Source of the DNA: Cyanobacteria bacterium FACHB-502
GTDB taxonomy: Bacteria > Cyanobacteriota > Cyanobacteriia > Elainellales > Elainellaceae
Direction: 5' to 3'
NCBI GenBank assembly: GCA_014695325.1
Contig: JACJNZ010000081.1
Coordinates: 1 to 58,152 of the forward strand
DNA: 58,152 nucleotides
A program made the position numbers and the translations under genes. Below are positions 359 to 17,756 of this stretch, piece by piece. The notes beneath the pieces were generated by a model. It saw nothing but the letters and a program-made list of their open reading frames with translations. It had not been told where the DNA came from and ran no database searches. Numbering within the stretch: the first letter of the stretch is position 1; each line of letters starts with the position of its first letter.

Positions 359-3042
359 TCAAAAGAGCGTATTTCTGGATGTGGAAAGATGGGGTCAACA
401 AATTTGAACAAACTCTGCTGCACAAGACCCAACATCTTATGAGACAAACGCTCTCGGTTTTGCCCTGCTGCTTGAATGGCGAGAGTTAGAGCCTCTAGCC
501 GGTTACCTTCGGCTAATTTATTATTAGAACTAGCAGCTTTAAACTGAACTTCTGCCTCCAGTAGTGCCTGCTGAAGTTTCAATTTGCTAGATTTTTCATA
601 CTGATCACTTAGGGTATAAAAGGTTTTGCTATCAGTCTCATTCTGAGTGTCCTCCTGAGAATCCAACAAGTAGGGTTGTAGCTTGTCACTGCGCCAGTAT
701 TCTTTTGCCTGGCTTAAGAGTGCTCCCATCATCAGATACTCAGTTTTCTTTTCTGGTGCAACCGCTTTCCACTTACGTCGAGCATCCTGCATTTGCTCTG
801 CAATCCGACGAACCTCGCGATCCTCTTGCAGCCATGTGGCAAATCGTCGCCAGCCACTAATCAGCGCTTCATGGGCTAAATCAACCATTTTGATGGCATC
901 AGGTTGTTTCCCAGCCACCTCTGAGGCATCAGGGTGTTGCTTCAGCACTGCCTGAATCACTGTTGGGTCGGCATCACCTCTGACTAGCAACCGACTATGC
1001 ACTAAATCGTCAATCAATGCCTTTAAGGCATCTCGCTGTTCGATCGAGTCTTTGACAATACCCAATAAATCGGCTTCTAATTGTCGTTGGCGAGTATCAG
1101 TACTACCTTCTCCAGTGCGTACCAGATTAACAAAGATTCGACGTATCCACTCCTGCTCCTCAAGGTTGCGAGTCCTAGAGGGGCAGGCTTCTTTCTCAAG
1201 AGTATTCTGATAGATCTCATCAGCATATACATTTAGAGCCCGCTTAAGCCCATTCGCTGCCGTTCTATTATCAGTGTTAGTCCCTGACTCGGAATCCTCC
1301 GCTCCCTTCACCCGACCAAGAGCGTTGTAAGCATCCCAAGTTAATTCATTTTCCTGATTACGGCTATCCCAGAGCTGCTCCAGCGCAAACTGCAACAATG
1401 GCAATGAGCCTGGCTCACTTACGGCATCGTTTAATAGTGCCGCCAACAATTTAGGTTCGATATTGCCTCCCTGTCGTCGAGCCGGTTCTACAATGGCTCG
1501 CTCGTACGCTGACAGCTTCATTGGTGGCATGAAAATCGCGGAATTTCCTTGAATTTGTCTATACAGAGCCTCATATCGCAAACAATCGCCAACAAAATCA
1601 GCTCGCATGGTCATTACAGCTGATACCGAGCTACCAGGCTCTAAAGCAGTTTGAGTAAGTAGTTCAATAAACAACGCCTGGTCTGCCTGAGGTAGCGAAT
1701 TGTCGTTTTGACCAATGTCTTTAGTGTGTTCTTTCGCAACCAGCGTAAATATTTCTTCAAATTGATCAACAAATAAGAGGAACCGTGGAGACGCCGGTAG
1801 ACTAGCTACAGCCGACACAAAAGCAGGCATCGCCGCAGCAACTTCATCAGTTGTACGACTGAACTCCAGTGACTCTAAGATGGAGCTACTAATATAGCCT
1901 TTAAGTCCCTGTGCCAATGATCTTGTCAGTTTCATTAAGGCATAACGGCCTGGTTTTATGGGCTCCAACACCCTCCAGTCATCTTCTTTTCTTAAAGCTG
2001 GAATTAATCCCGCTTTTACCACTGAAGACTTCCCACTGCCCGAAGCACCGATAATAGGTACAAAAGTCGGCCTCTCAAGCTTGTGTCGAATTAGGTCTAT
2101 CACATCCTCTCGACCAAAAAATAGTTCAGCGTGCTTTTCTTCAAAAGCATCTAATCCCGGATAGGGGTGCAGTAGCTGTCCAGTTACGGGATCTAGAACG
2201 GGGGGAAGTGGCGCAACGATCAATGAGCTTTCCTGAGGAAGCGGGGCGCACTCCTTCAAAATAATGGGAGCGTCTGCATAATTTGCATGAATAGGGCGCT
2301 GCTTGACTGTGCCACCAAAATCAGGATTTGTTAGTTTTCTGTATATAAATTCAAATAAGATTCCGCTCGTAATTTTGCCTTCTGGATTACGATACCCAGT
2401 CTCTTGAGACAGTCCCTCCACTAAATAGCGAGTAAAAATTCCCCCTCTCTGAGTAGCGATACCCTCTTTTTCCTGAGATTTGGCGGTTTCCCCATCCTGG
2501 CAAGCCGCGATAACGTGAAAATTTCTGAGCCTACCTCTAGTAAATGAACTTTGCAGCAAGCTAGCCTGCAATGCAGCGTGACCACTATGGCAGGCATCAA
2601 TCAGTAGCACGACACTCGATCGGTTAGATTGATGAATCAATTGATTCAACCAATTCAAACTTAATCCCGCCGGTCCTTCACGCAACACAGGGCTATTAGA
2701 GATAGAATTATCTTCCAATTTGACCCTACAGTCCGAGGTCGCTAAATAGCCATTGAGCTTGCGCTCCACAATTTCCTGATCAACTTCCTGATAACCATGT
2801 CCAGAAATATAAATCAGCACTTCTCCACTACGACCATCAGAAGCTAAAAAGGACTTTAAAGCACGTTTTAGAGCTTCAGTGGTAGTTTGATCTGGGTTTA
2901 AGATTCTTCCACTGATTTTGTATTTACTGTCCCTCAGAACCTCACTGACGTTACGAACATCTATGTTTGTGGACAAAGGAGAAAAGATGTCAGTCTGAGC
3001 ATATTTTTGAATTCCAATAAGGAGAGCTTCGCTATTATCCAT
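1..3042 (-). CDS. Caspase-like peptidase / STAND NTPase / WD40 protein, N-terminal part (runs off the left end)
   Basis: The frame is open from ATG at 3042 to the window edge (1,014 codons) with no stop. Residues 1 to about 250 form a caspase-like (C14) domain: His82 in ISGHGYQ and Cys151 in LLIDACHSG. A STAND-type NTPase follows (PYPGLDAF entry motif, Walker A GASGSGKSS at about 332-340, Walker B FLLFVDQFEE), then a helical stretch. WD40 repeats start near residue 893 and three are complete before the edge. In the family such proteins are sensors: the propeller detects a signal, the NTPase oligomerises and the protease cuts targets. It lies 51 bp downstream of the hydrolase gene, same strand. 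The 55628-58152 frame looks like its missing C-terminus; joined with an 8-bp overlap the protein is about 1,852 aa. The substrate is unknown. Confidence 0.9.
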   Translation of the reverse strand, partial: MDNSEALLIGIQKYAQTDIFSPLSTNIDVRNVSEVLRDSKYKISGRILNPDQTTTEALKRALKSFLASDGRSGEVLIYISGHGYQEVDQEIVERKLNGYLATSDCRVKLEDNSISNSPVLREGPAGLSLNWLNQLIHQSNRSSVVLLIDACHSGHAALQASLLQSSFTRGRLRNFHVIAACQDGETAKSQEKEGIATQRGGIFTRYLVEGLSQETGYRNPEGKITSGILFEFIYRKLTNPDFGGTVKQRPIHANYADAPIILKECAPLPQESSLIVAPLPPVLDPVTGQLLHPYPGLDAFEEKHAELFFGREDVIDLIRHKLERPTFVPIIGASGSGKSSVVKAGLIPALRKEDDWRVLEPIKPGRYALMKLTRSLAQGLKGYISSSILESLEFSRTTDEVAAAMPAFVSAVASLPASPRFLLFVDQFEEIFTLVAKEHTKDIGQNDNSLPQADQALFIELLTQTALEPGSSVSAVMTMRADFVGDCLRYEALYRQIQGNSAIFMPPMKLSAYERAIVEPARRQGGNIEPKLLAALLNDAVSEPGSLPLLQFALEQLWDSRNQENELTWDAYNALGRVKGAEDSESGTNTDNRTAANGLKRALNVYADEIYQNTLEKEACPSRTRNLEEQEWIRRIFVNLVRTGEGSTDTRQRQLEADLLGIVKDSIEQRDALKALIDDLVHSRLLVRGDADPTVIQAVLKQHPDASEVAGKQPDAIKMVDLAHEALISGWRRFATWLQEDREVRRIAEQMQDARRKWKAVAPEKKTEYLMMGALLSQAKEYWRSDKLQPYLLDSQEDTQNETDSKTFYTLSDQYEKSSKLKLQQALLEAEVQFKAASSNNKLAEGNRLEALTLAIQAAGQNRERLSHKMLGLVQQSLFKFVDPIFPHPEIRSFEGHTGDVYAVALSRDGQTIVSGSSDKTVRLWSLDGTLLRTLTGHTGYVRAVALSRDGQTIVSGSDDSTVRLWNLDGTLLRTLTGHTGAVYDVALSRDGQTIVSGSSDSTVRLWNLDGTLL

Positions 3043-3093
3043 TGAGCGTCCACCAATTAACCTGGCATATCTTTAACTGCACTCAAGCCACCC

Positions 3094-4440
3094 TTACTGC
3101 ACTAAGGATGCCGACCAAACAGCATGAGCTACCTCTGGCTCATCAATAGCACTATGTGCACCACCTAACCCTGCATCGGGAGGAATCTTACAAATGTATT
3201 TACTTGCCTCAAGGTTGTAAATCTTTCCAACCTCAAATGCATACGTCTGATCACACGGCAGCATTTTCAGAGACTCAGCTTCGATCCCTCCGCCCAATGC
3301 TCCATACGCACCAATCGCACCATACCTTGGCTGCTCATTCATGTCTGCGAAATTTGGATCGCTTCTAGCAATGCCAGAGGCTAATGGATACAGTCGCCCA
3401 ACAGCTGTGTCATATTCAGATCTCGTTGTAAGAATGGGACCATTCACTCGTCTATCAGCCAAAATAGAGTGAAAATAGCCAGGGCGTTTCTCACTAACCA
3501 CAGGGATCTCTGCACAATACGACCAGAGCGATACTGCTCCCTGGATTAAAGACAGAGAATTTACCGGGCGTACCAGTTGACCGTTGCCCTTAGCTCCAGC
3601 TAGCGAAGCCGACATCACAATACAACCGAAGCTATGACCCACTAGGTGAAATCTCACTGCTTCTGAGGTTGCACTTTGAAGTGACTGAAGTAACTGAGCA
3701 CCTCCTGTTTCACCAATTTGTCGTGCCCGTTCTTTCATCTTCCAATAGGACAGAGACCGTAATGGTGATAAGAGCCTATTGAGACTGAAGTGGCTAGGGC
3801 TATAGTCTTTGTCTTCAGTAGTTGTTTTTGTATAAATGGCTGCCGGATCAAACGGCTCTCTGTCCTCGCCCGGTGCCCCAGCTTCACCAGCACTTCCCAA
3901 GCCAGCTTCACCATTCAAATCTGCATACGCTTGGATGATCTCAGGAGGTAATTTCTCCGGATTATCCTCGTCTTCACCGGAATCAAAGATAATGCCAAGC
4001 GCTTTTTTGGCGATCGGTGTATCGGCGATGCGCTTGGCATATCGTTCGATCAAGCCTTCTCGGGAAAGGTTGGATTCAGCGTCATCAGCAGTTGATGCGC
4101 CATTATCTGCTAGATCTTCATTGCCCCAAGGCAAACTGGGCCAATGCAGTCCAATGAGTAATGGCTTAAAATTTGGTCTGACTTGCTTTAACGCCTCTAT
4201 GTCAGCAGTATTCGCTGCCATCGCTTGAATCCATTTGTTGTACTGGCGACGAGCTGCTGGAATATCTCCTAGCCAACCGTGGCTGATAATAAATACATCA
4301 CTGATGAGTTCCTGCGCTAACACTTCTAGCAGTGTCTGGCTCATTTTAGTGCCATCAGGCTCGTTGCGCTCTTGACCTGACGCATCAAAGTTGATCAGGT
4401 AATACTGTAACGGGGTATCAGGAACTTGTTCGAGAGGCAT
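3094..4440 (-). CDS. Alpha/beta-fold serine hydrolase (lipase/esterase-like)
   Basis: 448 aa. An oxyanion-type motif (ISHGWLGD, about 53-59) and a nucleophile elbow VGHSFG with Ser270 identify an alpha/beta hydrolase. A C-terminal AHSAIDEPE segment (near residue 430) could supply the catalytic His, which is inferred. There is no signal peptide or membrane segment, so it is probably cytoplasmic. It is the first gene of a minus-strand operon; the caspase-STAND-WD40 gene starts 51 bp downstream. Hydrolases beside STAND sensors usually act as effectors that cut lipids or small esters, but the substrate cannot be read from the sequence. The acidic, Gly-rich stretch at about 155-200 is an insertion relative to compact lipases. 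Confidence 0.8.
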   Translation of the reverse strand: MPLEQVPDTPLQYYLINFDASGQERNEPDGTKMSQTLLEVLAQELISDVFIISHGWLGDIPAARRQYNKWIQAMAANTADIEALKQVRPNFKPLLIGLHWPSLPWGNEDLADNGASTADDAESNLSREGLIERYAKRIADTPIAKKALGIIFDSGEDEDNPEKLPPEIIQAYADLNGEAGLGSAGEAGAPGEDREPFDPAAIYTKTTTEDKDYSPSHFSLNRLLSPLRSLSYWKMKERARQIGETGGAQLLQSLQSATSEAVRFHLVGHSFGCIVMSASLAGAKGNGQLVRPVNSLSLIQGAVSLWSYCAEIPVVSEKRPGYFHSILADRRVNGPILTTRSEYDTAVGRLYPLASGIARSDPNFADMNEQPRYGAIGAYGALGGGIEAESLKMLPCDQTYAFEVGKIYNLEASKYICKIPPDAGLGGAHSAIDEPEVAHAVWSASLVQ

Positions 4441-4856
4441 AAGAAACTCCTGAAATACGCTGAGCAGAGGTAAAGGTTAGCCCTATCGTGATCTGCAATT
4501 TCTTCCTGGAAGCTTACATATATTTTAAGTACGTCACTTAAATAAAATTGTAGAGCTTAATCTTTGCTTCCAGTAGAAGCAGCAACTCAACTTCAAATTC
4601 AGGAGAGCCATTCAAACAAGTTAATGTATCGACCTCAAATGCTGATTCTTCCGTCCATACAGATTCTTAAGTTGTCTTAACTAAAGGACAACTTATACAT
4701 GAGGGATGTTAGGGGAGAAAACTTGCAGTACTTTGTCAATTAAATCTCTGATTGACAAAATTACTCGAAAGCCAAAGACAGAATTGGCGATCGCCCAAGT
4801 GAGCCTGAATCTATACTTCTGTCGATTTGCAGTTGGAGCGGCAGAATGAAACGATC
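4441..4856. promoter_or_regulatory. Intergenic leader of the hydrolase/caspase operon, with a 7-bp inverted repeat
   Basis: This 416-bp gap precedes the hydrolase start. It contains an inverted repeat TTTAAGT-ACGTC-ACTTAAA at 4524-4542, about 85 bp upstream of the ATG, which is a plausible operator. No convincing gene is seen here. The IS4-family element bounds it on the far side. Confidence 0.35.
4848..4856. repeat. Left 9-bp target-site duplication of the IS4-family element
   Basis: GAAACGATC directly abuts the left terminal inverted repeat and is repeated exactly at 6129-6137. Nine bases is within the range usual for IS4-family elements. Confidence 0.85.
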
Positions 4857-6128
4857 CTTAAGGGGTGACAGCAAGGCTGGAACGTAAGTTGTGCAGCAGA
4901 AACCGTGTTGGAGAAACCTAAAAAATAGGGTGAATCCGAAGACTCAACCCTTGGTCTAAAAAATGTTGCCTTTATTCTACCAAGCTTGTCTACAAGCACA
5001 ACTGACATCGATTCAATTCATCACGTTGCAAATGCTGTTTGCCCTCTTGCAGCAGGAACGTCACGTTAGTATTGAGCGATTAGCCACGCTGTTTGCTCAA
5101 CCGATTCAGTTTGAAAGTCGTCGCCGCAACATCCAGCGTTTTTTGCAACTGCCGCAGTTGAATATCAAAGCCTTGTGGTTTCCGATTGTCAAACATTGGG
5201 TTAAACAGCAGTTTCATCGGGGACAACGGGTGTATCTGGTGATTGACCGTACAGCGTGGAAACATCATAATCTGCTGATGGTGAGCGTGGTTTACAAAAA
5301 GCGAGCTATTCCGGTGTTTTGGCATCACCTCGACCATTGCGGTTCGAGTTCGCTTTTAGAGCAACAAATCGTGCTGCGTCCTGTCTTTGCCTTGCTCGAA
5401 AGCTATGGCTGCATTGTGCTGGGAGATCGTGAGTTTCACAGCATTGCCCTTGCCGATTGGTTGCGCTCCCAACAGGTCGGATTCGTGCTGCGTCTGCCCA
5501 AAAGCACCACGGTCAAGTCCCACTCGGACACCCAGTTTGAACGCTTAGACGAGTTAGTGCAGTTTCCTGGCATCGCCTGCTTCGAGGTACAGGTGCAGGT
5601 GACCCAACAACAGGGCTTCGGTCGCTTCAATCTCGTCACCCGCTGGAGACGAAGCTACCGACAATCTAAAACGAATCAAGTCTGGTATTTGTTGACCAAC
5701 CTCGACTGCCTGGAAGTTGCACTCAACAGCTACGCCAAGCGGTTTTCAATTGAACCGATGTTCAAAGATTTCAAAACGGGCGGCTACAACCTGGAAAGTT
5801 GCCGCGCCACTGGGCAACGATTTCTCGCTTTAGTGCTGCTGGTGGCGATTGCCTACACCCTCACAACCGAGCAAGGCAAGCGGATGAGCCGCAAGCAAGT
5901 TCAGCACTACATTGGACGGGTGCAAGAACCGCATCGAGCGCAAAAACGACACAGCGATTTCTGGATTGGATTGTACGGACAGTTATGGATCAAATCCATG
6001 GATCTGTGGTCGAAGTGGGCAGAGCAGCTTATGTACCTCAAGCCCCAAAAACGCTACTTCTTCCAACGAGGGCTGAGGGCGATGAGCCTGATCCACTCTG
6101 CTCTCTAGCTTCTCTGTCACCCTGTAAG
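4857..6128 (+). mobile_element. Intact IS4-family insertion sequence, 1,272 bp
   Basis: The ends are imperfect inverted repeats: CTTAAGGGGTGACAG on the left, and on the right a sequence whose complement is CTTACAGGGTGACAG. The element contains one full transposase gene and is flanked by perfect 9-bp duplications. The intact duplication and gene suggest recent insertion, placed between the hydrolase operon and the GC-rich STAND operon. Confidence 0.88.
4963..6108 (+). CDS. IS4-family DDE transposase
   Basis: 381 aa. The DDE triad is visible as VIDRTAWK (first Asp), LGDREF (second Asp) and the Y-x2-R-x3-E-x6-K signature of the IS4 family in YAKRFSIEPMFKDFK (catalytic Glu). The gene fills the element between the terminal repeats and is unbroken, so the element may be active. 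The start ATG follows about 100 bp of left-end sequence. Confidence 0.93.
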   Translation: MLPLFYQACLQAQLTSIQFITLQMLFALLQQERHVSIERLATLFAQPIQFESRRRNIQRFLQLPQLNIKALWFPIVKHWVKQQFHRGQRVYLVIDRTAWKHHNLLMVSVVYKKRAIPVFWHHLDHCGSSSLLEQQIVLRPVFALLESYGCIVLGDREFHSIALADWLRSQQVGFVLRLPKSTTVKSHSDTQFERLDELVQFPGIACFEVQVQVTQQQGFGRFNLVTRWRRSYRQSKTNQVWYLLTNLDCLEVALNSYAKRFSIEPMFKDFKTGGYNLESCRATGQRFLALVLLVAIAYTLTTEQGKRMSRKQVQHYIGRVQEPHRAQKRHSDFWIGLYGQLWIKSMDLWSKWAEQLMYLKPQKRYFFQRGLRAMSLIHSAL

Positions 6129-6461: not shown

Positions 6462-9400
6462 TCACGACGTCTTCCCGCCCCGTTTCGCACTCTGCATGAG
6501 GTCTGACTCAGTCAGCACTTGGCACCACGCATTCGTTTGCTTGAGCTGAGCATCCAGCAGCCACTGCGGCGGCGACAGCGGATAGGGCCGTAATTCACGC
6601 TCGCCGACCGCGAACCACACGACGACGCGGTCGGCAACGTACTGCCGAAGCAGATCCTCTTTGATGTACAGCACGTCGCCGTCGAGTCCATCGACACCGC
6701 TGAGTGTGATGGTTGCCCGCGTGCCATCAGGTAGGCACTGATCGAACCCCTGCGGCACGCTTCGCAAGTCGAAGTGCGACGAGAAGAGTCGAGAAGGTAC
6801 GCGCGCTCTGCCCGCCTGGTTCATCTCGCTGTGGTAACTCTCCCACACATAGTCGTGCGCTAGAACCTCTACCTCGACGTCACCCTCGCCGGTACGAATG
6901 CTCTCTCGATAGGCGTGCTCGGGTCCAGACTCTCCGAGCGTCTCAGCGGCAAAGCCAGGGTGCCATGGAATCTCACCCGCAAACGTGTAGTAATCGCTGG
7001 GGATGTCGTTCGTCATCCATGGTCGCGCACCACTCTTGAGAGTCGCAACCAGGCCGGGCACACTCCCCTCAGCTGTAACTAACGCAGAAATGAATGCCCA
7101 AGCCTCGCGACCGAGCACTCTGTCCTCAGCCTTGACGAAGCCGTGAACGAGCAGCCAGGGCCCGTCGTGCTCGCCGATCTTGTCCCGCAGGATAAGATCG
7201 GCGAGCACGGGAGTGGAACTTTGGCAGAGCCAGGGCTCATGGCTTTCGACGGATGGCGACAGCCATGTGATAGAGGTGGCGGCTTCGCCGTCGACAGGCG
7301 GCTTGTCTGGGAAGGAAGGATCGATGTCGACGTCAGTGAACGGCCGGTCGTGGCGTGGGAAGCTGCCAGTCGCTTCGAGCAATCCAGCGTATGTGAAGAA
7401 ACCGATCCAGCAATACTTCTTCCCATAGCGCTCGGCGTGAGGTCGATGGCCACGTCCTCGATACGCACCTTCAGCGATTCCACGGTCCAGCGCATTGAAA
7501 CTCACCGACCTCCACCCGAGATCCCATACAATGCCTAGCACATGCGCCACGGCCGCTTTGTGTCCGGCGTGGTTCATGTCGTAATTGCTGCGACCCTCAC
7601 ACAGCCTACCGAGGGTGTAGTTCTCGAAATCCATCCCAAACGTGTGCTTCAGTTCGTCGGCTCGTGGATCGCTCTTGGCAATTGGCTGCACCGGCGCAGG
7701 ACCCGTGAAGGACCACCCTACAAGCAGCTCCGAAGGCAGGCTCCCAGGGTAGAACTTCGCCGTAAACTTGATGATGCCTCGCACGTAGAGGCGCGAAAGG
7801 TAGTGCGTCGTTGGGCTTGTTGCAGATGGACCAACCAGCGCACTCGCGATACCCGCAAGGAGGTGCCGGAGCGGTTCTCCGAACTCGGCTCCAGCCTGTT
7901 GGTGGCTCATGACCACGCCGTAGGCGGCTGCGAGCATCCGCTCGCTGACATAAGCGTCGTTCAATGGCAGCGAGTCGATGGTCAAGCCGAAAAGTCCTAC
8001 TGGATCGACTCGACCGAACCAATAGAGCGCACTCGTCGCCTGGTCCCGCAACTGTCGAACCGTACTCGTGAGTGTCCACATGAACCAGCGAGCGCGAAGC
8101 AGATCGCCTGGCCGCGCTACCCCGTTTCGCCAACATCGCGAGAGGTATTCCAGGTCTCGAAGTATCTCGTCTTGGTTCCTGCGCACCCACTCCGTCCAAC
8201 GCAGGTCTCGGTCTGCCACTCCCATCGGACGAAGTACTCCATCCAGTGCTTCGGCGTTCAGCGGGTGATTTACTGCTCCTCGCACTTCCCAGAGTTGCTC
8301 AAGCAACTCCGCGTCTCCTCCTCGGACGAGGTTAAGCAATTCATCGACCGTTACCGCGTCCAAATAGGCCACCTCGAGCCTCGCAGCGATCCGCAGGGCT
8401 CTAGAGCGGAGCGGTTCGTCAACCAGCTGCCACAGCTGCTTAGAGTAGAAACGTCGAGGGATTTGCCCGACCAGCGAATACAGGATGTCGTCGCCAAGCG
8501 GATGTCGTTGGTTGTAGTCGCCGGCTAACAGCGCTGTTGTGGACGCCTCACGAACCCAGGTATCGAAGCCTGACTGCCCGTGGCTTGCGAGCAGAGCGTT
8601 GGCGATGATGTGCCCTCCTAGGAGATCGTACACAGGCATGTACGCGCCGCCGCCGTCCGACGGCATGCGGAGCAAAACTCCTTCATGCTCTAAGGCACGC
8701 ACGAGGCTTTGATCCCAGGGCCGCCCCTCGTCTCCTAGAGCGTGGCGCAGTTGGGACAATTCGATAGAACGAGTGCGCGACGCCCACAGGGACTGCGCAA
8801 TGGTCGTAAGCGCCGCCCGAACGTCTTGCGCGTAGTATCGTTGTGTTCGAGGAGCGAGTTCTGCGACTCGATCGCCGACTTGATCAAGATAGCGATCGAA
8901 CAATGCGGTCAGCGATCCCGGCATCGCGTCGATGCCAACCACCTTATGACGCGTCGGGTTCGTCACCTCGCAGAAGAGCCTCAGGGTCAAGGGGTGGCTA
9001 AGGAAACCGGGCAGCGAGGTGTCGGTCGCGTCAATCTTCCAATGCTGAAAGTGAAGCCGAATCGCGTCCATTACATCCACACCGTAGTCGGCGATCTCTA
9101 CGCGCCGCGCTCCCGTGGGAATGGCTTCTTCTTGGAACTCTGGCCGAATGGTGCAGAGCAGTAGGACATAAGGATATTTCGCAAGGACCGTCTCCAGCCC
9201 AGCGAGCTGCGGCTTCCATTCCCGTGGATCTTCCGACTCGTTGAGCCCGTCGATGACCACCGGCAACCGGTGGCGAGCACGCTGACCAGCGGCATCTACA
9301 GCTGCGAACAGAAGCTCCATGGTCTGAACAGACTGAGCCGCAATCGTCACTCGCCGCGCAAGGTCGTCGAGCGTGTGCCTCGCGTGTAGGTCCCGGCCAT

Positions 9401-10463
9401 GCAGGAGTATCCCATCGGGGCGGCCGTCTGTGGCTGCTGTCAACTGGGCGGCAAGGTGCGTCTTGCCACAGCCTGCGGGGGCGATCAACGCGACGACGCG
9501 GGACGAGAACGCGTTATCAACTGCTGCGAACAGATCCAGGGTCTCATGGCATCCGGCGACCGCGTTCGTCACATAGAGCCCGACTTTATGGTTCCCTGAA
9601 CGCAGTCGCCGGGGGGCCGTGGCCACATCAGCAGCCAGTACGCGCGGCTGTGAGATGAGCTCATCTCGTAGCAGGTCAATGTCCCCATCGCGGATTGCGT
9701 CGGCTACACGCTCGAGTGCATCAGCAAAGAGCATCGCCGTCTCGACCACACACGACACACTGGGCGCGAGTGGGGCTGGTACCTGTGGTGCCAACTCCGC
9801 CGCCTTTGCATCTGAGCGCATGTTCGCGGCCAACACACGGAGCGAGTTCCACGCGTCGGACTCCCCAAGCATGCGGCGGAGGTCGCGTTCAGCATCAACG
9901 ACTTGATGAACCTCCGGTTGCCACCTCGCGCGTATCGGAGCGACTGACTGCTCGCGCCGTTCTCGCAACAGGTCCGGCGTCAGTACCAGATCACCAAAGT
10001 AGGTTCCGCGGAACACGCTTGCCTGGCCGACCAGGAGATTGTCGATCTCGTCTGCGGTCCAGAGGTGCAAAGTCATCTTTGACGACAGCCCAGCGAACCA
10101 CGTCTGATCGGCACTGGTCAACGGGCGACGAGTCCAGAGCACCCAGTCTGTGATTCCGGGAACATGGTCCTCCGTCTTGCGGATGCCTTCCTCGATCTTG
10201 GTTCGCCTCGTCGACCCCAACGCGCCGCTTGTCGGCAAGTCGTACCACTTGCACTGCCATCCCCACCAGCGTCCCGGTTCGCCCAGGGCATCAGAGTGCC
10301 GGTCTAGCTTCAGATGAAACTCGACCCCTGGCTGGTTCGCGAGGGCGCGAAGAACGCCGTAGCTACCAAAGTTGTGACGAACGAGACCTCTGCAGAGCAG
10401 CTCGAAGTTCTTCTCGGCGCTCCCTGGCAGACTTGCGAAGGCGTCCCAGTTCAATGCTGGCAT
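6462..10463 (-). CDS. Nuclease-STAND protein: restriction-endonuclease-like N-terminus, P-loop NTPase, long C-terminal sensor region
   Basis: 1,333 aa. Residues about 20-160 look like a PD-(D/E)XK nuclease: Glu48 in QPGVEF and Gln70-Cys-Lys72 in WQCKWYD match the E...QxK active-site pattern of Mrr-like enzymes. A P-loop NTPase follows, with Walker A APAGCGKTHL near 330 and Walker B RLPVVIDGLNES near 400, in the STAND/NACHT style. About 800 further residues lack an obvious repeat and are probably the sensor arm. The layout matches Avs-like defence proteins in which ligand binding activates a nuclease; that is inference. It is the last gene of a three-gene operon, 20 bp after the small protein. 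GC content is clearly higher than in its neighbours, which suggests transfer. Confidence 0.8.
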   Translation of the reverse strand: MPALNWDAFASLPGSAEKNFELLCRGLVRHNFGSYGVLRALANQPGVEFHLKLDRHSDALGEPGRWWGWQCKWYDLPTSGALGSTRRTKIEEGIRKTEDHVPGITDWVLWTRRPLTSADQTWFAGLSSKMTLHLWTADEIDNLLVGQASVFRGTYFGDLVLTPDLLRERREQSVAPIRARWQPEVHQVVDAERDLRRMLGESDAWNSLRVLAANMRSDAKAAELAPQVPAPLAPSVSCVVETAMLFADALERVADAIRDGDIDLLRDELISQPRVLAADVATAPRRLRSGNHKVGLYVTNAVAGCHETLDLFAAVDNAFSSRVVALIAPAGCGKTHLAAQLTAATDGRPDGILLHGRDLHARHTLDDLARRVTIAAQSVQTMELLFAAVDAAGQRARHRLPVVIDGLNESEDPREWKPQLAGLETVLAKYPYVLLLCTIRPEFQEEAIPTGARRVEIADYGVDVMDAIRLHFQHWKIDATDTSLPGFLSHPLTLRLFCEVTNPTRHKVVGIDAMPGSLTALFDRYLDQVGDRVAELAPRTQRYYAQDVRAALTTIAQSLWASRTRSIELSQLRHALGDEGRPWDQSLVRALEHEGVLLRMPSDGGGAYMPVYDLLGGHIIANALLASHGQSGFDTWVREASTTALLAGDYNQRHPLGDDILYSLVGQIPRRFYSKQLWQLVDEPLRSRALRIAARLEVAYLDAVTVDELLNLVRGGDAELLEQLWEVRGAVNHPLNAEALDGVLRPMGVADRDLRWTEWVRRNQDEILRDLEYLSRCWRNGVARPGDLLRARWFMWTLTSTVRQLRDQATSALYWFGRVDPVGLFGLTIDSLPLNDAYVSERMLAAAYGVVMSHQQAGAEFGEPLRHLLAGIASALVGPSATSPTTHYLSRLYVRGIIKFTAKFYPGSLPSELLVGWSFTGPAPVQPIAKSDPRADELKHTFGMDFENYTLGRLCEGRSNYDMNHAGHKAAVAHVLGIVWDLGWRSVSFNALDRGIAEGAYRGRGHRPHAERYGKKYCWIGFFTYAGLLEATGSFPRHDRPFTDVDIDPSFPDKPPVDGEAATSITWLSPSVESHEPWLCQSSTPVLADLILRDKIGEHDGPWLLVHGFVKAEDRVLGREAWAFISALVTAEGSVPGLVATLKSGARPWMTNDIPSDYYTFAGEIPWHPGFAAETLGESGPEHAYRESIRTGEGDVEVEVLAHDYVWESYHSEMNQAGRARVPSRLFSSHFDLRSVPQGFDQCLPDGTRATITLSGVDGLDGDVLYIKEDLLRQYVADRVVVWFAVGERELRPYPLSPPQWLLDAQLKQTNAWCQVLTESDLMQSAKRGGKTS

Positions 10464-10483
10464 GATGGAAACTCCAACACGGA

Positions 10484-10894
10484 CTACTTACCTCGACCGT
10501 GAGCAGTGCCTGGATGGTCATGCGCGGAGTAGACCTCAATGCGCGCACCGCGGAGGAACAGGACCTTGAGGAATGCGGCGATGTCGAGCTCCTCGGTGGT
10601 GACAACGACCGACTTGTCTTCCACTTTGACATTGACCTCGTACGCGAATTGCTCTAGCTCGGCCGGCCCGATCGATGCCACATTCAATCGACCGAGAAGG
10701 TCGAGCATCTCATCGCCATATCGATTCGAGGGGTTACCGAATAAGATCGTGCCACTCTCTTGATCCTTCGCGACCTGATCCATAAGTGCGTCGATGATCT
10801 CCTTCGCTTTCGTTGCCTCAGTTGCGTGCTCGAAGTGCCCGATCATTACGAGGTTCGCGGAATGCTCTGAGCCGTGTTGGTACCAGATCTTCAT
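10484..10894 (-). CDS. Small conserved protein resembling DUF6375
   Basis: 136 aa from ATG 10894, where GGAGAAGG supplies a ribosome site and the start overlaps the radical SAM stop by 4 nt (ATGA). The beginning MKIWYQHGSEHSANLVMIG and a following KAKEIIDAL helix recall the DUF6375 family from memory; this was not checked by search. The function is unknown. Tight coupling on both sides says it works with the radical SAM enzyme and the nuclease-STAND protein, possibly as the modified or activating partner. Confidence 0.72.
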   Translation of the reverse strand: MKIWYQHGSEHSANLVMIGHFEHATEATKAKEIIDALMDQVAKDQESGTILFGNPSNRYGDEMLDLLGRLNVASIGPAELEQFAYEVNVKVEDKSVVVTTEELDIAAFLKVLFLRGARIEVYSAHDHPGTAHGRGK

Positions 10895-11895
10895 GCGTCC
10901 TTCTCCGCGACATTGTTGGCAAGTTGGTCGAGCGCGTCGAGCACGCGGCCTGCACCGATCGGCACGCCGGTGGCGTGATACGAGGTGGGCTTGATGACGC
11001 CCGCTGCGTCGATATGCGCGTATGCACGAAGACCGCGCTCCTCGACCAAAGGATCGCAAGTCGGAAACCCGTCAGCGTGCGACTCGTTGATGCAGAGCTT
11101 CAAGGGTCCGCTGTACTCGTCCACCCACCGACGAAGAGCTTGCACGGTCGCATCGGTGACCGCTCTCACGCTGCGTACCGCCACCTGGGGGAGGAGCAGC
11201 AGCTCGGTGGCCCCAGAATCCGCAGCAACTGCAGCAGCTTTGTCGAGCTCGGGCATGGTCCGCTCGTTCACGACAATGTTGATGCCGAAGCCTGAGATGC
11301 CCCGGATGAGCTTCAACCGAGCTTGTAGGTCGGGGAAGGAGCGCTGACGGATAGATTCGTAGGTGTCACCGATCCCATCCATGCTCACGCGAATGAAGTG
11401 GACGCTGCCTCGAAGCCTGTCGGCCATGGCTTGGTCGATGTAGTGTCCATGTGTCGTGAACGTTACCGAGAGCTTCGTCTCAAGGGCGGCATACCGGCAG
11501 AGTTCAGAGAATCGAGGGTAGAGGGTGGGTTCGCCTCCACCGAAGCCGACACCAAGAGTGCCGTTGGTGTCAAGCTCAACGAGCCAACGCGTGACCGCGT
11601 CGTAGCAAAGCTCGTCACGAGACTTAGGTGCGAAGCAATGGGCGCACGCAAGGTCGCACCGATTGGTTAGCGCAATCGAGACTTGGCGGGGTGCACATGA
11701 CCATAGCACGGCAGGAACGGGGATCTCATCGCAAAGTATATTCATGCCAGTAGTGCGGTTAAATACATGGAGTCCCCCCGGACCACCGCGCAACTTCCAA
11801 TGATCAGCATGATGGTTGTTCAGAGAGGTTTTCACTACCGCACAATGTCTTTTGTCAGTTGGCGAGGCTTCCAAGGTTACGTTTCGTTGTTTCAC
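10891..11895 (-). CDS. Radical SAM enzyme
   Basis: 334 aa. The 4Fe-4S motif CDLACAHC (CxxxCxxC) follows SIALTNR, and GFGGGEPTLYP provides the GGEP SAM-binding element, so the core is a standard radical SAM barrel. The C-terminus is short and has no clear SPASM cysteine cluster. The longest frame starts at GTG 11895; ATG 11745 (MNILCDEIP) is an alternative that keeps the core. It is the first gene of the operon with the DUF6375-like and nuclease-STAND genes. Radical SAM enzymes in defence loci make modified nucleotides or modify peptides; which applies here cannot be told. Confidence 0.85.
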   Translation of the reverse strand: MKQRNVTLEASPTDKRHCAVVKTSLNNHHADHWKLRGGPGGLHVFNRTTGMNILCDEIPVPAVLWSCAPRQVSIALTNRCDLACAHCFAPKSRDELCYDAVTRWLVELDTNGTLGVGFGGGEPTLYPRFSELCRYAALETKLSVTFTTHGHYIDQAMADRLRGSVHFIRVSMDGIGDTYESIRQRSFPDLQARLKLIRGISGFGINIVVNERTMPELDKAAAVAADSGATELLLLPQVAVRSVRAVTDATVQALRRWVDEYSGPLKLCINESHADGFPTCDPLVEERGLRAYAHIDAAGVIKPTSYHATGVPIGAGRVLDALDQLANNVAEKDA

Positions 11896-11932: not shown

Positions 11933-12019
11933 CGCTAACGTTGCAAATACCCGCCGCAGATAACTTTTCTCACTTAACAAAGAGCCTTTTAGTGGTCGGG
12001 TGTTTGGGCATAGTTAGGC
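11933..12019. other. attC-like integron recombination site
   Basis: The site begins with GCTAAC and ends with GTTAGGC. The inner arms pair imperfectly (GCAAATACCCG with CGGGTGTTTGGGC) around a central loop. It lies just upstream of the GC-rich operon. The pairing is weaker than at the three sites near 39-42 kb. Confidence 0.5.
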
Positions 12020-12184
12020 TGCGGTCTGTACTCGTTGATGGTTTAGCTAAACCGCAACGTCTTTATTAATGAAAGTGTTGTGTAGCTATCAGGTAACTTT
12101 GTCGGTTCCAGCAACTCTATAGTTCTCAAATACGGGTATGTTTAGCAAACGCGAAAAAAACAACGCTTGTATATTAAGGAGTCT

Positions 12185-12224
12185 AGCCTTAGCGTTGTTT
12201 ATTGTTCCAATGCTACTTAAACCC
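12185..12224 (+). repeat. 40-bp direct repeat, left copy (candidate att site)
   Basis: Matches 17757-17796 at 30 of 40 positions, and most of the differences are transitions. The shared core is a TTTATT-TTCCA-TGCT-TTAAACC skeleton. The pair brackets a 5.5-kb segment containing a tyrosine recombinase. Confidence 0.5.
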
Positions 12225-12233
12225 GTTGCCGGA

Positions 12234-13094
12234 TTAATATTTTTTCTTTGTCGGCCGTCGTCGACTACGCAGATCCTCTGAAAGCTCAGTTCTGAGGATA
12301 CTGCTCAACCGTTGAAGAAACACAAAATCCCTGAATCTATAAGCCGGTGAATTTGACTCTGATCCAGTAATGCCGAAATTCCACATCTCGATCTTGTCAA
12401 GTTCATTTGGGTCGAGAGCCTTTCGATACTCATCAACTTTTTCTTTACTGATATCTTGAGCATCCTGTGTAAATGTTGGAACTCTAAGATCTCCAGCTAA
12501 CGATGCACGTGTAAGAGCCCTCGCTAGCTTGAAGTAGGCATCTTGCGCCTCCTTGCTCAGAAACAGTCCACCATCCTCAAAATACCATTTCGACATGGCT
12601 TGTCCCATCTCTCTACACTCTTTCGGTCCAATTGATGATGTGGATGAATGAGTACTGGGAAAATAAATAGCAAGTGGTGCGGTTGCCTTTACAAGCTTCG
12701 GGTATAATTCAATTCTTTTATCATGGACAGACTGATCCAATTCACCATACCGTGTTAGTCGAGCCACCCAAATAGAGGCAGCTGTACCCGTGAAGCCTGC
12801 CAGAAGCCCTACAATGCCTGTAAGCCAGCTTGACCATTCATTCCTAAGCTCTTTAACCTCAAGTTCCAGCTTGTCAACCTCAAGTTGAGCCTTGCGTTTC
12901 TGCAGATTATTTTGTAACTGCTGTGCTGTAGCTGTCTCCGACCATAGCAGCACGAGTCCTAAAATCATCACTGTGCAACTTACCACACGCAAACTTTTGC
13001 TAGGGAAATGATGCGTGTGTTCAATGCATACTAACGATCGCAAGCGAAACTGCTTCAATCCATTGTCTCTCCTCTGTCCAACAATCTGCTTCAT
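12234..13094 (-). CDS. Hypothetical two-membrane-segment protein with a coiled coil
   Basis: 286 aa with no recognised family. A hydrophobic segment at about 36-55 (VVSCTVMILGLVLLW) is followed by a charged coiled coil at about 60-88 and a second hydrophobic stretch at about 90-110 (LTGIVGLLAGFTGTAASIWV). The remaining 170 residues form a soluble helical domain ending in a basic tail. It lies 58 bp after the PLD-like membrane gene, same strand, so the two may be co-transcribed. A membrane effector or scaffold is possible, but nothing in the sequence proves it. Confidence 0.65.
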   Translation of the reverse strand: MKQIVGQRRDNGLKQFRLRSLVCIEHTHHFPSKSLRVVSCTVMILGLVLLWSETATAQQLQNNLQKRKAQLEVDKLELEVKELRNEWSSWLTGIVGLLAGFTGTAASIWVARLTRYGELDQSVHDKRIELYPKLVKATAPLAIYFPSTHSSTSSIGPKECREMGQAMSKWYFEDGGLFLSKEAQDAYFKLARALTRASLAGDLRVPTFTQDAQDISKEKVDEYRKALDPNELDKIEMWNFGITGSESNSPAYRFRDFVFLQRLSSILRTELSEDLRSRRRPTKKKY

Positions 13095-13152
13095 CCGCTG
13101 TTAGTATCCTTTCGACTCAACCACTTGATACAGTCGGCGTGCAAGCGGATGG

Positions 13153-13932
13153 TTATGTAGTGGTTCGATTAGACTTGCAGTGCCATTCCTGACCTGCATT
13201 CCAGAGATTTAGAATTTCAGTTTTATACACACCATACCAATACGGGTCTTTGCGCGAGGACACAACCACGCACGGTAAATCCCTGCCAGTTTTATAGGAG
13301 TAATATTCGACATAGATAGCACCATCACTTAGTTCCATGTTGGATGCAAAACAACCGAATGGAATGGGAAAGTCAATCGTTCTAATTTCAAGTCTATCTG
13401 GCGTCTTTGAATGCAAACTGCAAACAGTCAATAAAGTATCTAATATTTTATCACTAAGGCGTTGGCTAGTTATAGGTCTGTATATTCTTCTGGGCATCAA
13501 TTTAGCTGCTTCACCATTAGGAGTAACGACAAGAATCTTAATCTTTTGACCATCTCTTAAATTTTGTTCTAGCTCAGAATAGAACGTCATGATGGTGCGG
13601 TTCAGAGATATGCCAACAATAAGCAACTCTTTTGAGTTAGATATAGCAGCATCCCTTAAATCAAGTGGAAGCCCGTCATAAAGAAGATTACTTGTTCCGG
13701 TAAGCTTGCCATTTATGCTGTTCAAGCGATCTCGGATTCCAAGACTATAGGCTGCTAGTAACCCTAACAAAGCCAATGTAACTGACTCAACGAGAGTCCT
13801 AGAAGCTAAGCCTAACCCATTAAGAGCAGCTAGCGTAAGTGCCGCAAATGCAAAGAAATAAAGGTCAATATTTTCACCTTTACGTAGATCCGAGATAATG
13901 CGCTTAATGACTTCCATTGCAACTCTATCCAC
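13153..13932 (-). CDS. Membrane-anchored protein with a phospholipase-D-like sensory domain
   Basis: 259 aa. Two membrane helices lie at about 22-40 and 45-65. The soluble part starts with DAAISNSKELLIVGISLNRT and IKILVVTPNG, a pattern seen in catalytically inactive PLD-fold domains. No HKD catalytic motif is visible, so binding or signalling is more likely than lipase activity. ATG at 13932 is used; Met at about residue 6 is an alternative start. It is paired with the downstream gene at 12234 and is divergent from the NACHT gene at 14514. Confidence 0.65.
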   Translation of the reverse strand: MDRVAMEVIKRIISDLRKGENIDLYFFAFAALTLAALNGLGLASRTLVESVTLALLGLLAAYSLGIRDRLNSINGKLTGTSNLLYDGLPLDLRDAAISNSKELLIVGISLNRTIMTFYSELEQNLRDGQKIKILVVTPNGEAAKLMPRRIYRPITSQRLSDKILDTLLTVCSLHSKTPDRLEIRTIDFPIPFGCFASNMELSDGAIYVEYYSYKTGRDLPCVVVSSRKDPYWYGVYKTEILNLWNAGQEWHCKSNRTTT

Positions 13933-14513
13933 TACACTCGCATGGGGCGATGAATCGTAGATTTTTGCTGGCTGCAGATCTCCTCACTAACCGATCAAGC
14001 TGTATAACTCATAATTAGCCCGGATTAATTCTGCCTAATTCCCAAATTGGACATTAGCCCAACAAATTTTCCGTATAATACCCCCTATTTTGGGTATAGC
14101 CCGAATCCTTCAGCGTTTCTTCAGTCTGTTTTCACCTCCTATTCTGCCTAAGATCCCAGAAACAGGATTAGACGGAATCAAGGTGCTGGCATGGAGCCAC
14201 GACCTCGAAAATGATTAGACCAAGTTCGCGATGGCATTCGCATACAGCTTAACTTGTCGAAAATATTGCCGAATTGAGGTATTTTTGGCAAAGCTCTGTT
14301 TCATCTTTTATTGAGTCTCCCTTATATTGCTACTAAATCATCATTTGCAACAAGAAGGACTTCTTCTCAATAAGCAGCATTCTTGTCTGCACCTATTCCT
14401 CAGAAGAACGAAGTATCAGGGCTTTGACCCCTCTAGATGAACAAACTATAATTTCTTCATCTAAGGTTTTGCTTCTCCTATAATTATCCTCAAAGTAAAT
14501 TCCCCTTCTCCTC
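13933..14513. promoter_or_regulatory. Divergent intergenic region, including one copy of a 48-bp dyad repeat
   Basis: This 581-bp region separates the minus-strand membrane pair from the plus-strand NACHT gene and should hold both promoters. At about 14245-14292 it contains a copy of the repeat built on GTCGAAAA-TGCCGAA-TTTTCGGCA that also occurs near 43.99, 47.61 and 52.30 kb. No gene is supported. Confidence 0.4.
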
Positions 14514-16700
14514 ATGGCTCAATCCAGTCTCTGGTTGCAGTCCTTAGTGCTGGCAATCGTTGGTGTACTTGCTGCTTGGGCAGGTAACAACTTGCCATCC
14601 GTGCAGGATTTAAAGTTGCCGCTTTCCTGGGCTCAAATTCTGGCACTGGCTGTGGTTGCCTCGTTGATGCTTAACGTCTTGTCTTTGCAATGGGACGGAG
14701 CAGCGGATACAGGCCGGCAAGCCGTTTCTCGAAGTTGGAGGAGTTGTCTGTTTCCTTTAATCGCGAGTGGGAGCTTATTTTTCCTCGTGCGAGCTAGGTA
14801 CGTTCCCGCAGAGATAGTGACTCCTTGTCTCTATGTCTCGCTGTTTTTATTTTTCTGTGCTGCAATTCTTCCACCCCTATTAACCTGGAATGTTCAAAGG
14901 AGTTCTGGGGAAGCGACGCAGCTAGGGACACAACCTAATTCCCCTTCCAATGCGGATGCTCGTAATCGTCACGGCTTGTTGAAAGTAGTCAGGATCGAGG
15001 TGGAAGGTCGGCTTCAATCTGCCTTTCACAATCGAGTGCGACTGATTTTAGGGAAGGAATCTTTGCCAGCAGAGGTGCAACGTCCTTGGGATCAGGAGGT
15101 GAAAGACCGAAACGATACTCCCATCACAATCGAGGCAGGCACCAGTATTTCGAGCATTTTTGAGCAGCCTGCGATTGCAGGGGGAAAGCTTTTGATTCTG
15201 GGTAATCCTGGCGCTGGGAAAACAACGATGTTGCTAGAGCTCGCCAAGGAGTTGATTGATCAGGCGCATGACAATTCTGACAGTCTAATGCCTGTAGTTC
15301 TGGGGCTGTCCTCCTGGCAGGGGCCTAAACAGAAGTTTTCGGACTGGATCTTGTCCCAATTGAAGCTGAAATATAACGTGCGCGAGGCGATTGGGCAGCG
15401 ATGGCTGGAGACAGGACAGTTATTGCCATTGCTTGATGGATTAGATGAGGTAGCTCCCGAATCGCAAGTTGCTTGTATCAGAGCAATCAACCAGTTTCGA
15501 CAAGAATTTGAAGTTAACCAAGTCGTTGTTTGCAGTCGTATCCAGGAATATCGACAGTTACAAACCCAATTGCAATTGAATGCTGCTGTCTACTTACAAC
15601 CACTCAATCTACAGCAAATTCGAGAGTATTGTCTCCGCGCAGTGGGACCGGATTTGTGGAACATCGTTCAAGCTGATTCAAATCTATTGGACTTAGTTAA
15701 AACTCCCTTCTTTATAGGGGTTATGAGTGTTGTTTGGAGAACAGTTTTGCTATCTAATTGGCAACAAACTCAATCCACTAAGGAGCAACGACAACTGCTT
15801 CTAGATGCCTACATTAGACAAAGACTAGAACGAATTGATACTCAGCAACCGGAGAGGGCACGAAGATGGCTAGCCTGGTTAGCAACCAACTTACAGCTGC
15901 ATAATCAGGATGAATTCTTCATTGAGGAACTACATCCAAGCTGGTTGATGGAGCGACAGTTAGAAAAGACTTATCGAATTGTTGTTGGGCTGATCGTTGG
16001 CTTAACTTGCGGACTACTTTTTGGATTAGTAGTAGTGCCGCCTATTGGCTTGGTTACTGGGTTAATTCTTAGTGTAATTACTAGTTTGCTTCTTGGATTA
16101 TGCGCGGGAATGCTGGATTTTTCTGCTAACAGAGCAGCGATGAGATGGTCTTGGAAAAAAGCCAATCTTTTTGCTGTTTACACTCCAATTGCTGGCCAGG
16201 TTGGTTGGTGGATAGCTTGGTTAATTAATGGGACAAGCAATGGAGTAACCTATGGCCTGATTGGTAGTCTAATTGCTAGTCTAATTAGTTTGCTTGTTGG
16301 ACTAATAATTGGAATGACCACAACAGAAATAGAAAAAATAACAATACCCAATCAGGGTATTAGAGAATCTAAAATTAATACGTTGATTACCGTGCTGCTT
16401 TTTGGATTTCTCGGGTTATGTACTGGATTTCTTTCAGAAACGCTTTCGGGGTTGCTTAACGGTTTATTGTGTGGGGTGATTTTTGGGATGATTGGGGGAG
16501 GAATGGCACTAATTCAACATTTTGTCCTACGTCTCGTCCTTCTTCAAAAGGATTATGCTCCCTGGAATTACATTAGGTTTCTTAATCATGCGACAGACGA
16601 TTTCATTCTGCTGCAGCGTGTAGGAGGGAGCTATCGCTTCATCCATGCTTTACTACGCGCTCGATTTACTGAAATATGGGCTGCGGAGGAAATGGAATAA
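14514..16700 (+). CDS. Membrane NACHT-type STAND NTPase
   Basis: 728 aa. About four hydrophobic segments occupy residues 1-125. A NACHT domain follows, with Walker A LGNPGAGKTT near 230 and Walker B LLPLLDGLDE near 303, the typical LxDGLDE NACHT signature. After a helical region, residues about 490-660 are a second block of roughly six Gly-rich membrane helices. NACHT proteins with membrane modules are thought to be signal-gated effectors; membrane disruption is a reasonable but unproven guess. The stop overlaps the start of the recombinase gene by one base (TAATG), so translation is coupled. Confidence 0.88.
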   Translation: MAQSSLWLQSLVLAIVGVLAAWAGNNLPSVQDLKLPLSWAQILALAVVASLMLNVLSLQWDGAADTGRQAVSRSWRSCLFPLIASGSLFFLVRARYVPAEIVTPCLYVSLFLFFCAAILPPLLTWNVQRSSGEATQLGTQPNSPSNADARNRHGLLKVVRIEVEGRLQSAFHNRVRLILGKESLPAEVQRPWDQEVKDRNDTPITIEAGTSISSIFEQPAIAGGKLLILGNPGAGKTTMLLELAKELIDQAHDNSDSLMPVVLGLSSWQGPKQKFSDWILSQLKLKYNVREAIGQRWLETGQLLPLLDGLDEVAPESQVACIRAINQFRQEFEVNQVVVCSRIQEYRQLQTQLQLNAAVYLQPLNLQQIREYCLRAVGPDLWNIVQADSNLLDLVKTPFFIGVMSVVWRTVLLSNWQQTQSTKEQRQLLLDAYIRQRLERIDTQQPERARRWLAWLATNLQLHNQDEFFIEELHPSWLMERQLEKTYRIVVGLIVGLTCGLLFGLVVVPPIGLVTGLILSVITSLLLGLCAGMLDFSANRAAMRWSWKKANLFAVYTPIAGQVGWWIAWLINGTSNGVTYGLIGSLIASLISLLVGLIIGMTTTEIEKITIPNQGIRESKINTLITVLLFGFLGLCTGFLSETLSGLLNGLLCGVIFGMIGGGMALIQHFVLRLVLLQKDYAPWNYIRFLNHATDDFILLQRVGGSYRFIHALLRARFTEIWAAEEME

Positions 16701-17269: not shown

Positions 17270-17330
17270 TCTCCGCTTCCCCTCCGGCTCCGCCTAGTAC
17301 AACGTGGCGATCGTTCTGCCCATTCTTTTT

Positions 17331-17377
17331 TATTCGTGTTACATTTTGCTCATTTTTTATCAAATGTGACACGAATA
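17331..17377. promoter_or_regulatory. 16-bp inverted repeat upstream of a small gene (operator or recombination site)
   Basis: The arms at 17331-17346 and 17362-17377 match at 15 of 16 positions (TATTCGTGT-ACATTT) around a 15-bp spacer. The right arm ends 1 bp before the ATG of the small gene, covering the place of a ribosome site. Related CGTGTCA dyads bracket the paralogous small gene at 53.0-53.5 kb. Confidence 0.65.
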
Positions 17378-17378
17378 G

Positions 17379-17731: not shown

Positions 17732-17756
17732 AAGTTTGAGGCAATTGCCGGAGCAA

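Follow-up and report, generated by a model that had tools for sequence, protein, structure and literature searches.

A conserved operon of a radical SAM enzyme, a DUF6375 protein and an Avs2-type STAND protein, a candidate phage-defence unit with a putative protein-modifying module

A three-gene operon in Cyanobacteria bacterium FACHB-502, found in a 58,152-nucleotide stretch of DNA (contig JACJNZ010000081.1 of assembly GCA_014695325.1, positions 1 to 58,152; hereafter 'the window'), encodes a radical S-adenosylmethionine (SAM) enzyme, a small protein of the DUF6375 family and a nuclease-STAND protein which, by sequence comparison, is a full-length homologue of Avs2 (AVAST type 2). Our tentative reading, to which we give somewhat less than an even chance, is that the enzyme modifies the N-terminus of the DUF6375 protein and that the modified protein controls the Avs2-type sensor-nuclease in a horizontally spread phage-defence unit. 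The genes are arranged on the minus strand in the order radical SAM enzyme, DUF6375, nuclease-STAND, with the following features.

10891..11835, minus strand: radical SAM enzyme gene; likely GTG start at 11835, 314 residues; CxxxCxxC motif; Pfam PF04055, E 4.3e-13.
10484..10894, minus strand: DUF6375 gene; 136 residues; predicted ferredoxin-like domain; Pfam PF19902, E 3.3e-40.
10853..10894, minus strand: conserved DUF6375 N-terminus, residues 1–14, consensus MKIWxGYGSEHSMN; proposed substrate of the radical SAM enzyme.
6462..10463, minus strand: Avs2-like nuclease-STAND nucleoside triphosphatase (NTPase); 1333 residues; PADLOC Avs2 match, PDB 9o4e profile match and full-length hhalign alignment.
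9984..10463, minus strand: PD-(D/E)xK-type nuclease region of the STAND protein, approximately residues 1–160; E48, Q70 and K72; limits and type assigned by inspection.
8604..9506, minus strand: STAND/NACHT-like NTPase core, approximately residues 320–620; Walker A G331-x-G333-K334-T335, Walker B at about D405.
6462..7751, minus strand: C-terminal sensor region, approximately residues 905–1333; motifs DFxNYTxGxL and ERYGKKYxW; assigned from conservation.

The trio is a real conserved operon, beyond chance clustering. An earlier, sequence-only reading of the window had described three tightly coupled genes, and the open reading frames (ORFs) were recovered where it placed them, with a 4-nt overlap (ATGA) between the radical SAM and DUF6375 genes and a 20-bp gap between the DUF6375 and STAND genes. 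The radical SAM gene is likewise present (PF04055), although the start given for it, 11895, did not survive: translation probably begins at the GTG at 11835, giving 314 residues, which is also the length of the relatives in loci L011, L012, L015, L016, L018 and L023 (script-chosen starts). When a DUF6375 alignment was compared with one genome per species from 84,980 species, 88 relatives were found and 80 kept; by record titles they include Pseudomonadota, Planctomycetota, Actinomycetota, Nitrospirota, Bacteroidota, Chloroflexota, Bacillota, Verrucomicrobiota and Cyanobacteriota. This neighbourhood search with the small protein, which the sequence-only reading had proposed as a check, links the genes: a STAND gene, in some cases broken or running off the contig, lies downstream of DUF6375 in 77/80 loci, and a radical SAM gene upstream in 78/80. 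STAND is missing from L020, in which DUF6375 itself is truncated, and from L079 and L084, which keep both other genes. DUF6375 apart from the radical SAM gene, sought in the 80 loci, was found only in the truncated remnant L020 and in L064, whose contig starts just upstream. Of the 77 loci measured, 59 have a radical SAM/DUF6375 overlap of exactly 4 nt, the full set taking in broken or truncated radical SAM frames (L021, L044) and frames cut by a contig end (L048, L088), and the DUF6375-STAND gap ranges from −8 to 59 nt (76 loci); in loci other than the window both values depend on gene starts chosen by script as those nearest the profile match.

Co-inheritance is also evident from plasmids and from sequence distances. 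The plasmid matches to DUF6375 (E ≤0.01) and to the radical SAM enzyme (E ≤1e-10) fall in the same 16 records; STAND matches occur in 57 records, 15 of them among those 16 and 42 outside, and in the sixteenth an IS3 element occupies the expected STAND position. Across 64 loci (short, split and edge loci left out), pairwise distances correlate at 0.828 for DUF6375 and radical SAM, 0.897 for DUF6375 and STAND, and 0.913 for radical SAM and STAND (Mantel test; 0/2000 permutations reached the observed values). Such congruence, together with tight spacing and an order fixed in 77/80 loci across many phyla, makes it highly improbable that the radical SAM/DUF6375 pair has a separate function, for example in a peptide-product pathway, and merely travels with an Avs2 gene. 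The neighbourhoods of both kinds of gene do hold mobile and defence genes, as that explanation would have it: matches listed for the scanned neighbour ORFs (117 of 205 eligible; the 25 most frequent of 173 and of 93 families) include MADS, Gabija-like, type I restriction, AbiE and Bil, with integrases and transposases also among them, all as raw counts with no background for defence-gene enrichment. No family, however, accounts for more than 3 of these ORFs, and no fourth conserved component recurs among them.

Two pairs lacking STAND were examined by eye. One, from Ensifer (L079:9984-15454), adjoins a transposase and genes that resemble a ubiquitin-like, JAB and E1 protein-conjugation set; the other, a divergent pair from an Uhrbacteria metagenome-assembled genome (L084:8066-16522), has an OLD-like ATPase and an integrase downstream. 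A Halomonas radical SAM frame (L050:8048-9001) carries an in-frame TAG while the DUF6375 and STAND frames remain open, and split radical SAM frames occur also in L044 and L047; decay or assembly error is possible in these cases.

The trio is rare, DUF6375 being present in only 4/292 genomes of a Cyanobacteria sample. In an Actinomycetes sample (296 genomes) the radical SAM family had three matches, two within trios and the third a partial frame (L121) whose 3.3-kb locus holds neither DUF6375 nor STAND. Phage records searched with the DUF6375 protein gave no match, and viral contigs yielded one trio (L091). Horizontal spread is suggested by the closest STAND protein among eight relatives compared, which is that of an alphaproteobacterium, Pelagibius litoralis (identity 67% for radical SAM, 83% for DUF6375, 79% for STAND), the window genome being cyanobacterial. 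The GC-rich block that had been noted as unlike its surroundings is borne out by composition (0.600 for the trio against flanks of 0.472, positions 1-6108, and 0.454, positions 12000-18000); with a DDE transposase at 4963-6108, this makes the trio look like an acquired cassette.

The sequence-only reading could match the genes to no named system, a statement that no longer holds for STAND. The PADLOC Avs2 model PDLC02164 matches the window STAND over residues 2-902 (E 1.1e-90); the best PDB match of a five-sequence STAND profile is the Avs2 structure 9o4e (E 7.6e-61; next MsbA, 0.0015); and hhalign against five solo Avs2 relatives covers 1237 columns at 18% identity (E 2.6e-81). The NCBIfam Avs2 model NF041813 is matched at 184.7 bits, below its equivalog cut-off of 1000. 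The Avs-like architecture originally proposed, an E...QxK nuclease before a STAND ATPase, held up across 71 aligned STAND proteins: E48 and Q70 are invariant (71/71), position 72 holds K in 58 sequences and R in the other 13, and G331, G333 and K334 of Walker A are invariant, while the NTPase core has a weak Pfam NACHT match (322-448) below that model's cut-off. The sensor region is linked with four solo Avs2 relatives by matches of 27–49 bits at about positions 977–1182 of the profile. One Actinomycetes STAND (L116:4141-7950, a 1270-residue frame) shares the C-terminal half strongly (338 bits, profile positions 718–1340) with a weak core match (69 bits), no nuclease-region match and no radical SAM/DUF6375 pair; judging from its sequence, the sensor half may be exchangeable.

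Solo Avs2 relatives that could be examined have no radical SAM/DUF6375 pair beside STAND. STAND matches were found in 4/369 genomes of a Gammaproteobacteria sample, one being the trio genome used as centre; L118 and L122 are without the pair, and the fourth, L117 (the same as L111; G458), is uninformative in this respect because its STAND frame runs off the contig on the pair's side. Outside this count, L102, a fragment near a record end, is equally uninformative. The equivalent Actinomycetes figure was 4/345 genomes, comprising three trios (one the centre) and one STAND without the pair. In a tree of 84 sequences, 75 trio STANDs and 9 solo relatives are split across one branch, with support of 1.0 under one rooting and 0.8 under the other (trio STANDs ≤1250 residues, L040 and L054 were dropped, and the tree is without L100, L102, L111/L117 and unfetched plasmid STAND matches). 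Given this division and the solo relatives lacking the pair, it is most likely that the pair joined this STAND lineage once and stayed with it.

Anti-phage activity is what we infer for the trio by analogy. According to PMC12931631, Avs1–Avs4 recognise terminase, portal or another phage protein, cleave DNA with their nucleases and kill infected cells upon sensing phage proteins, and the STAND sensor should by analogy recognise a conserved phage protein. It is very unlikely that the trio instead regulates something other than phage infection, such as plasmid conflict or programmed death under stress. Its presence on plasmids and the two DUF6375/radical SAM pairs without STAND would suit such a role; set against these are the homology of STAND to Avs2 along its full length, the defence genes nearby and the reported killing of infected cells by Avs1–Avs4 in the same source.

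The case for modification begins with the DUF6375 protein, which matches PF19902 at 138.2 bits, well above the gathering score of 27.5. AlphaFold2, run with 68 sequences, gave a model (mean predicted local distance difference test score, pLDDT, 86.4; predicted template modelling score, pTM, 0.81) whose elements run strand-helix-helix-helix-strand-strand-helix-strand, a predicted ferredoxin-like fold. Residues 1–10 are predicted to be unstructured (mean pLDDT 41), the other ten-residue blocks scoring 82–97 except for the last (65). Fold comparison returned generic ferredoxin-like matches only (Z ≤6.1), the weak matches including two signal proteins with small ligands, PII and PstA; solved structures offered no credible sequence match, and no close fold relative among the matches listed.

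This fold-free segment is nevertheless strongly conserved. In a 68-row alignment (the window plus 67 of the 81 scanned loci L011–L091, near-duplicates and L020 having been dropped by hand), mean column entropy is 0.67 bits for residues 1–14 and 0.78 for residues 1–10, compared with 1.92 for residues 15–136. Invariant columns are M1, W4, E10, H11, S12, N14, G19 and F21, six of them within residues 1–14, with M1, as the start, invariant by construction; position 2 is K in 63/68 rows and R in 5/68. Two short patterns were used in the scan, one in the N-terminus and one at 117–125, so that part of the conservation seen at both sites in the 80 loci reflects selection by the scan. However, the 17/80 loci that lack the N-terminal pattern all keep W4 and EHSxN, showing that N-terminal conservation is not purely a search artefact; in the 16 of them within the alignment, residues 1–10 average 0.78 bits and residues 15–136 average 1.54. 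One trio found through STAND (L113) departs at N14 and reads EHSMD. A conserved segment outside the fold would be expected of a modification site or of a docking peptide. No DUF6375 column has cysteine in at least five rows, and thioether chemistry on the protein is therefore unlikely.

The radical SAM enzyme carries C80-x3-C84-x2-C87 in 61/61 aligned rows, as the cysteines picked out from sequence alone had promised. The AlphaFold2 model (334-residue version, pLDDT 91.1) places a conserved three-stranded sheet before the barrel (predicted strands 33–38, 41–46 and 51–55). By Z, the best fold matches are two maturases of ribosomally synthesised and post-translationally modified peptides (RiPPs), SkfB (26.6 over 290 residues, model 31–334) and SuiB (25.5 over 304 residues, model 27–334), after which come viperins (up to 22.8, 235 residues, 2.2 Å) and then BlsE, PqqE, MoaA and a sulfatase-maturing enzyme. 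The Foldseek E-value order agrees in placing SkfB and SuiB ahead of viperins, as do Foldseek template modelling (TM) scores normalised by the model (0.69–0.72 for SuiB/SkfB, 0.56–0.62 for viperins). The SkfB and SuiB alignments take in the N-terminal sheet, with no helix of four or more residues between its strands and the barrel. These strands sit where SkfB and SuiB carry their peptide-binding domain; their resemblance in the model to a RiPP recognition element (RRE), without the helices that follow, is only suggestive.

Narrower assignments of the enzyme and its chemistry did not hold. Its best NCBIfam match, mycofactocin maturase, is below cut-off (68.1 of 265 bits), and viperin identity was set aside on its score with the viperin model NF038283 (46.4 bits, cut-off 180). 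Membership of the SPASM class was discarded for lack of auxiliary-cluster cysteines, the commonest cysteine columns C-terminal to C133 holding 40/61 (residue 280) and then 10/61. Besides CxxxCxxC only C133 is invariant in the 61 rows, and it was rejected as a catalytic cysteine on finding V in two Deinococcus loci. Splicease-type chemistry is tyramine excision; at Y7-G8 it was dismissed, since the window and 6 of the other 67 rows have H at position 7. A Lys-Trp cross-link, the SuiB-type chemistry, was kept at K2/W4 as a lead only, position 2 being R in 5/68 rows and the auxiliary-cluster cysteines missing.

Of the two roles guessed at from sequence alone for the radical SAM enzyme, modification of the small protein is thus somewhat better supported than production of a signal nucleotide, because by Z the enzyme is nearer RiPP maturases and because the DUF6375 N-terminus is conserved and predicted to be unstructured. 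Several observations nonetheless weigh against modification as the basis of the system. The lowest-entropy ten-residue window of DUF6375 is 10–19 (0.36 bits), which reaches from the end of the tail into the first strand, and conservation is high again at 116–125 (0.60 bits); E10–N14 and S123–H125 could therefore be a binding or catalytic site instead. This pattern makes modification slightly less likely and a ligand site more so. Viperins match the enzyme at lower root-mean-square deviation (rmsd) than the RiPP maturases and at higher Foldseek TM-scores normalised by target (about 0.65–0.77 against 0.56–0.61), and SPASM-type auxiliary-cluster cysteines were not found in the 61-row alignment. 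Moreover, R at position 72 means that the nuclease may be weak in some trios, and the absence of the pair from solo Avs2 relatives indicates that it is dispensable for Avs2 function as such.

One alternative is a viperin-like enzyme that makes a small molecule or modified nucleotide which DUF6375 binds, senses or processes and relays to STAND, an explanation we consider unlikely but worth weighing. The PADLOC pVip profile matches the enzyme core (E 4.4e-16), viperin structures reach Z 22–23 at lower rmsd over fewer residues, DUF6375 has weak fold similarity to the ligand-binding PII and PstA, and patches 10–19 and 116–125 could form one site, judging by the usual strand order of the fold. Against it stand the viperin equivalog score, far short of cut-off, and the rank by Z of the RiPP maturases, whose match covers the N-terminal sheet as well; moreover, a ligand site alone would not account for an invariant W4 and a conserved K2 within the tail, for which no structure is predicted.

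It is rather unlikely, too, that the enzyme modifies STAND, or an unlinked target, with DUF6375 serving as an adaptor that docks the enzyme or the sensor through its N-terminus. All three proteins co-vary, STAND and radical SAM most tightly (r 0.913), and a conserved, flexible tail is expected for docking as well; yet L079 and L084 keep the pair, with the DUF6375 N-terminus intact, in the absence of STAND, and solo Avs2 relatives have no such enzyme alongside.

If DUF6375 is indeed the substrate, the unit might work as follows. The radical SAM enzyme would modify at least one residue in the DUF6375 N-terminus (MKxWxxYGSEHSxN), and the modified protein, as a partner of STAND, would license, tune or restrain it. 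The C-terminal sensor would recognise a conserved phage protein, of terminase or portal class by analogy with Avs proteins; recognition would drive STAND, with ATP, to form oligomers in which the N-terminal nuclease cleaves DNA, so that the infected cell dies or stops growing. Modification of DUF6375, its site and the direction of control over STAND are what we infer from the comparisons above. Avs proteins, which are described as acting alone or with effector partners, have been likened to the nucleotide-binding leucine-rich repeat (NLR) sensors of plant and animal immunity. Somewhat less probable is the specific picture of an NLR-like sensor that is permitted to act, or is restrained, by a partner bearing a radical SAM modification, for example a cross-link or an oxidised residue at W4, E10, H11 or S12.

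Should this be correct, it would mean radical SAM modification controlling STAND/Avs defence, with DUF6375 a new kind of protein substrate, and would give a first testable role to a Pfam family of unknown function. The STAND lineage is rarely found without the enzyme and the small partner, which suggests a further layer of control in which immunity would depend on a chemical mark and perhaps also on redox or SAM status; radical SAM enzymes are usually oxygen-sensitive. With just an enzyme, a sensor and a small protein whose conserved N-terminus is short, the system would be compact.

Other features of the window lie outside the trio. A second STAND/NACHT protein of 728 residues (14514-16700, plus strand; Pfam NACHT E 1e-8) has hydrophobic stretches in its C-terminal half, and its gene is overlapped by 25 nt by that of a tyrosine recombinase (16676-17269, plus strand; Phage_integrase E 7.7e-26). 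An ORF at 106-489 contains a segment repeated internally (MTCKGAQESAIE..PQPHS..ATNNRLSIPTQGYC, twice, read by eye) and is possibly a non-coding direct repeat. Four ORFs of 259–710 residues, at 3094-4440, 12234-13094 and 13153-13932 (minus strand) and 18111-20243 (plus strand), went unmatched in Pfam and PADLOC at E 0.001; a GHSFG motif, typical of alpha/beta hydrolases, occurs in the first.

The trio itself was absent from the PADLOC (2023) and NCBIfam entries searched, so that a defence-database entry, which would have refuted the sequence-only reading, did not turn up. DUF6375 is mentioned in none of 5.39 million papers, and none of the titles and abstract openings listed for related topics describes the trio, a scope that excluded most subscription papers and all bioRxiv preprints. 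The nearest known system is Avs2 (NF041813; PDB 9o4e), with which the STAND protein shares architecture and homologous nuclease, STAND core and sensor, whereas it falls below the NF041813 cut-off (184.7 of 1000 bits), occupies its own side of the tree and is paired with the radical SAM enzyme and DUF6375. Avs2 is defined as a single-gene system, unlike the trio found here in 77/80 loci (broken and edge-cut genes counted). The enzyme resembles SkfB and SuiB in structure, N-terminal sheet included, but is without their auxiliary-cluster cysteines and has a shorter region before the barrel; their substrate is a free precursor peptide, where that of the trio enzyme is likely to be the N-terminus of a folded protein. 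With pVip it shares a radical SAM core, a defence setting and fold similarity (Z up to 22.8), differing in its score far under the viperin cut-off and in its DUF6375 and STAND partners.

That a chemistry module should accompany a STAND or other conflict NTPase is plausible in view of two published parallels. AVAST and Hachiman acquired nuclease-protease pairs, as PMC12799240 describes; in AVAST type 1 and Hachiman, as here, a two-protein chemistry module has been added, there with one partner activated by proteolysis, but the module is a nuclease with a trypsin-like protease in place of a radical SAM enzyme with DUF6375. In vWA-MoxR FtsH ternary conflict systems, according to PMC7159879, a radical SAM enzyme is proposed to modify a separately encoded, standalone peptide effector, a likeness to the modification proposed here, although the NTPase core is a different one and the effector is a peptide rather than a folded protein with a tail. 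What is new is the accessory radical SAM/DUF6375 chemistry module on an Avs2-type system, the Avs2-type STAND protein itself being of a known kind.

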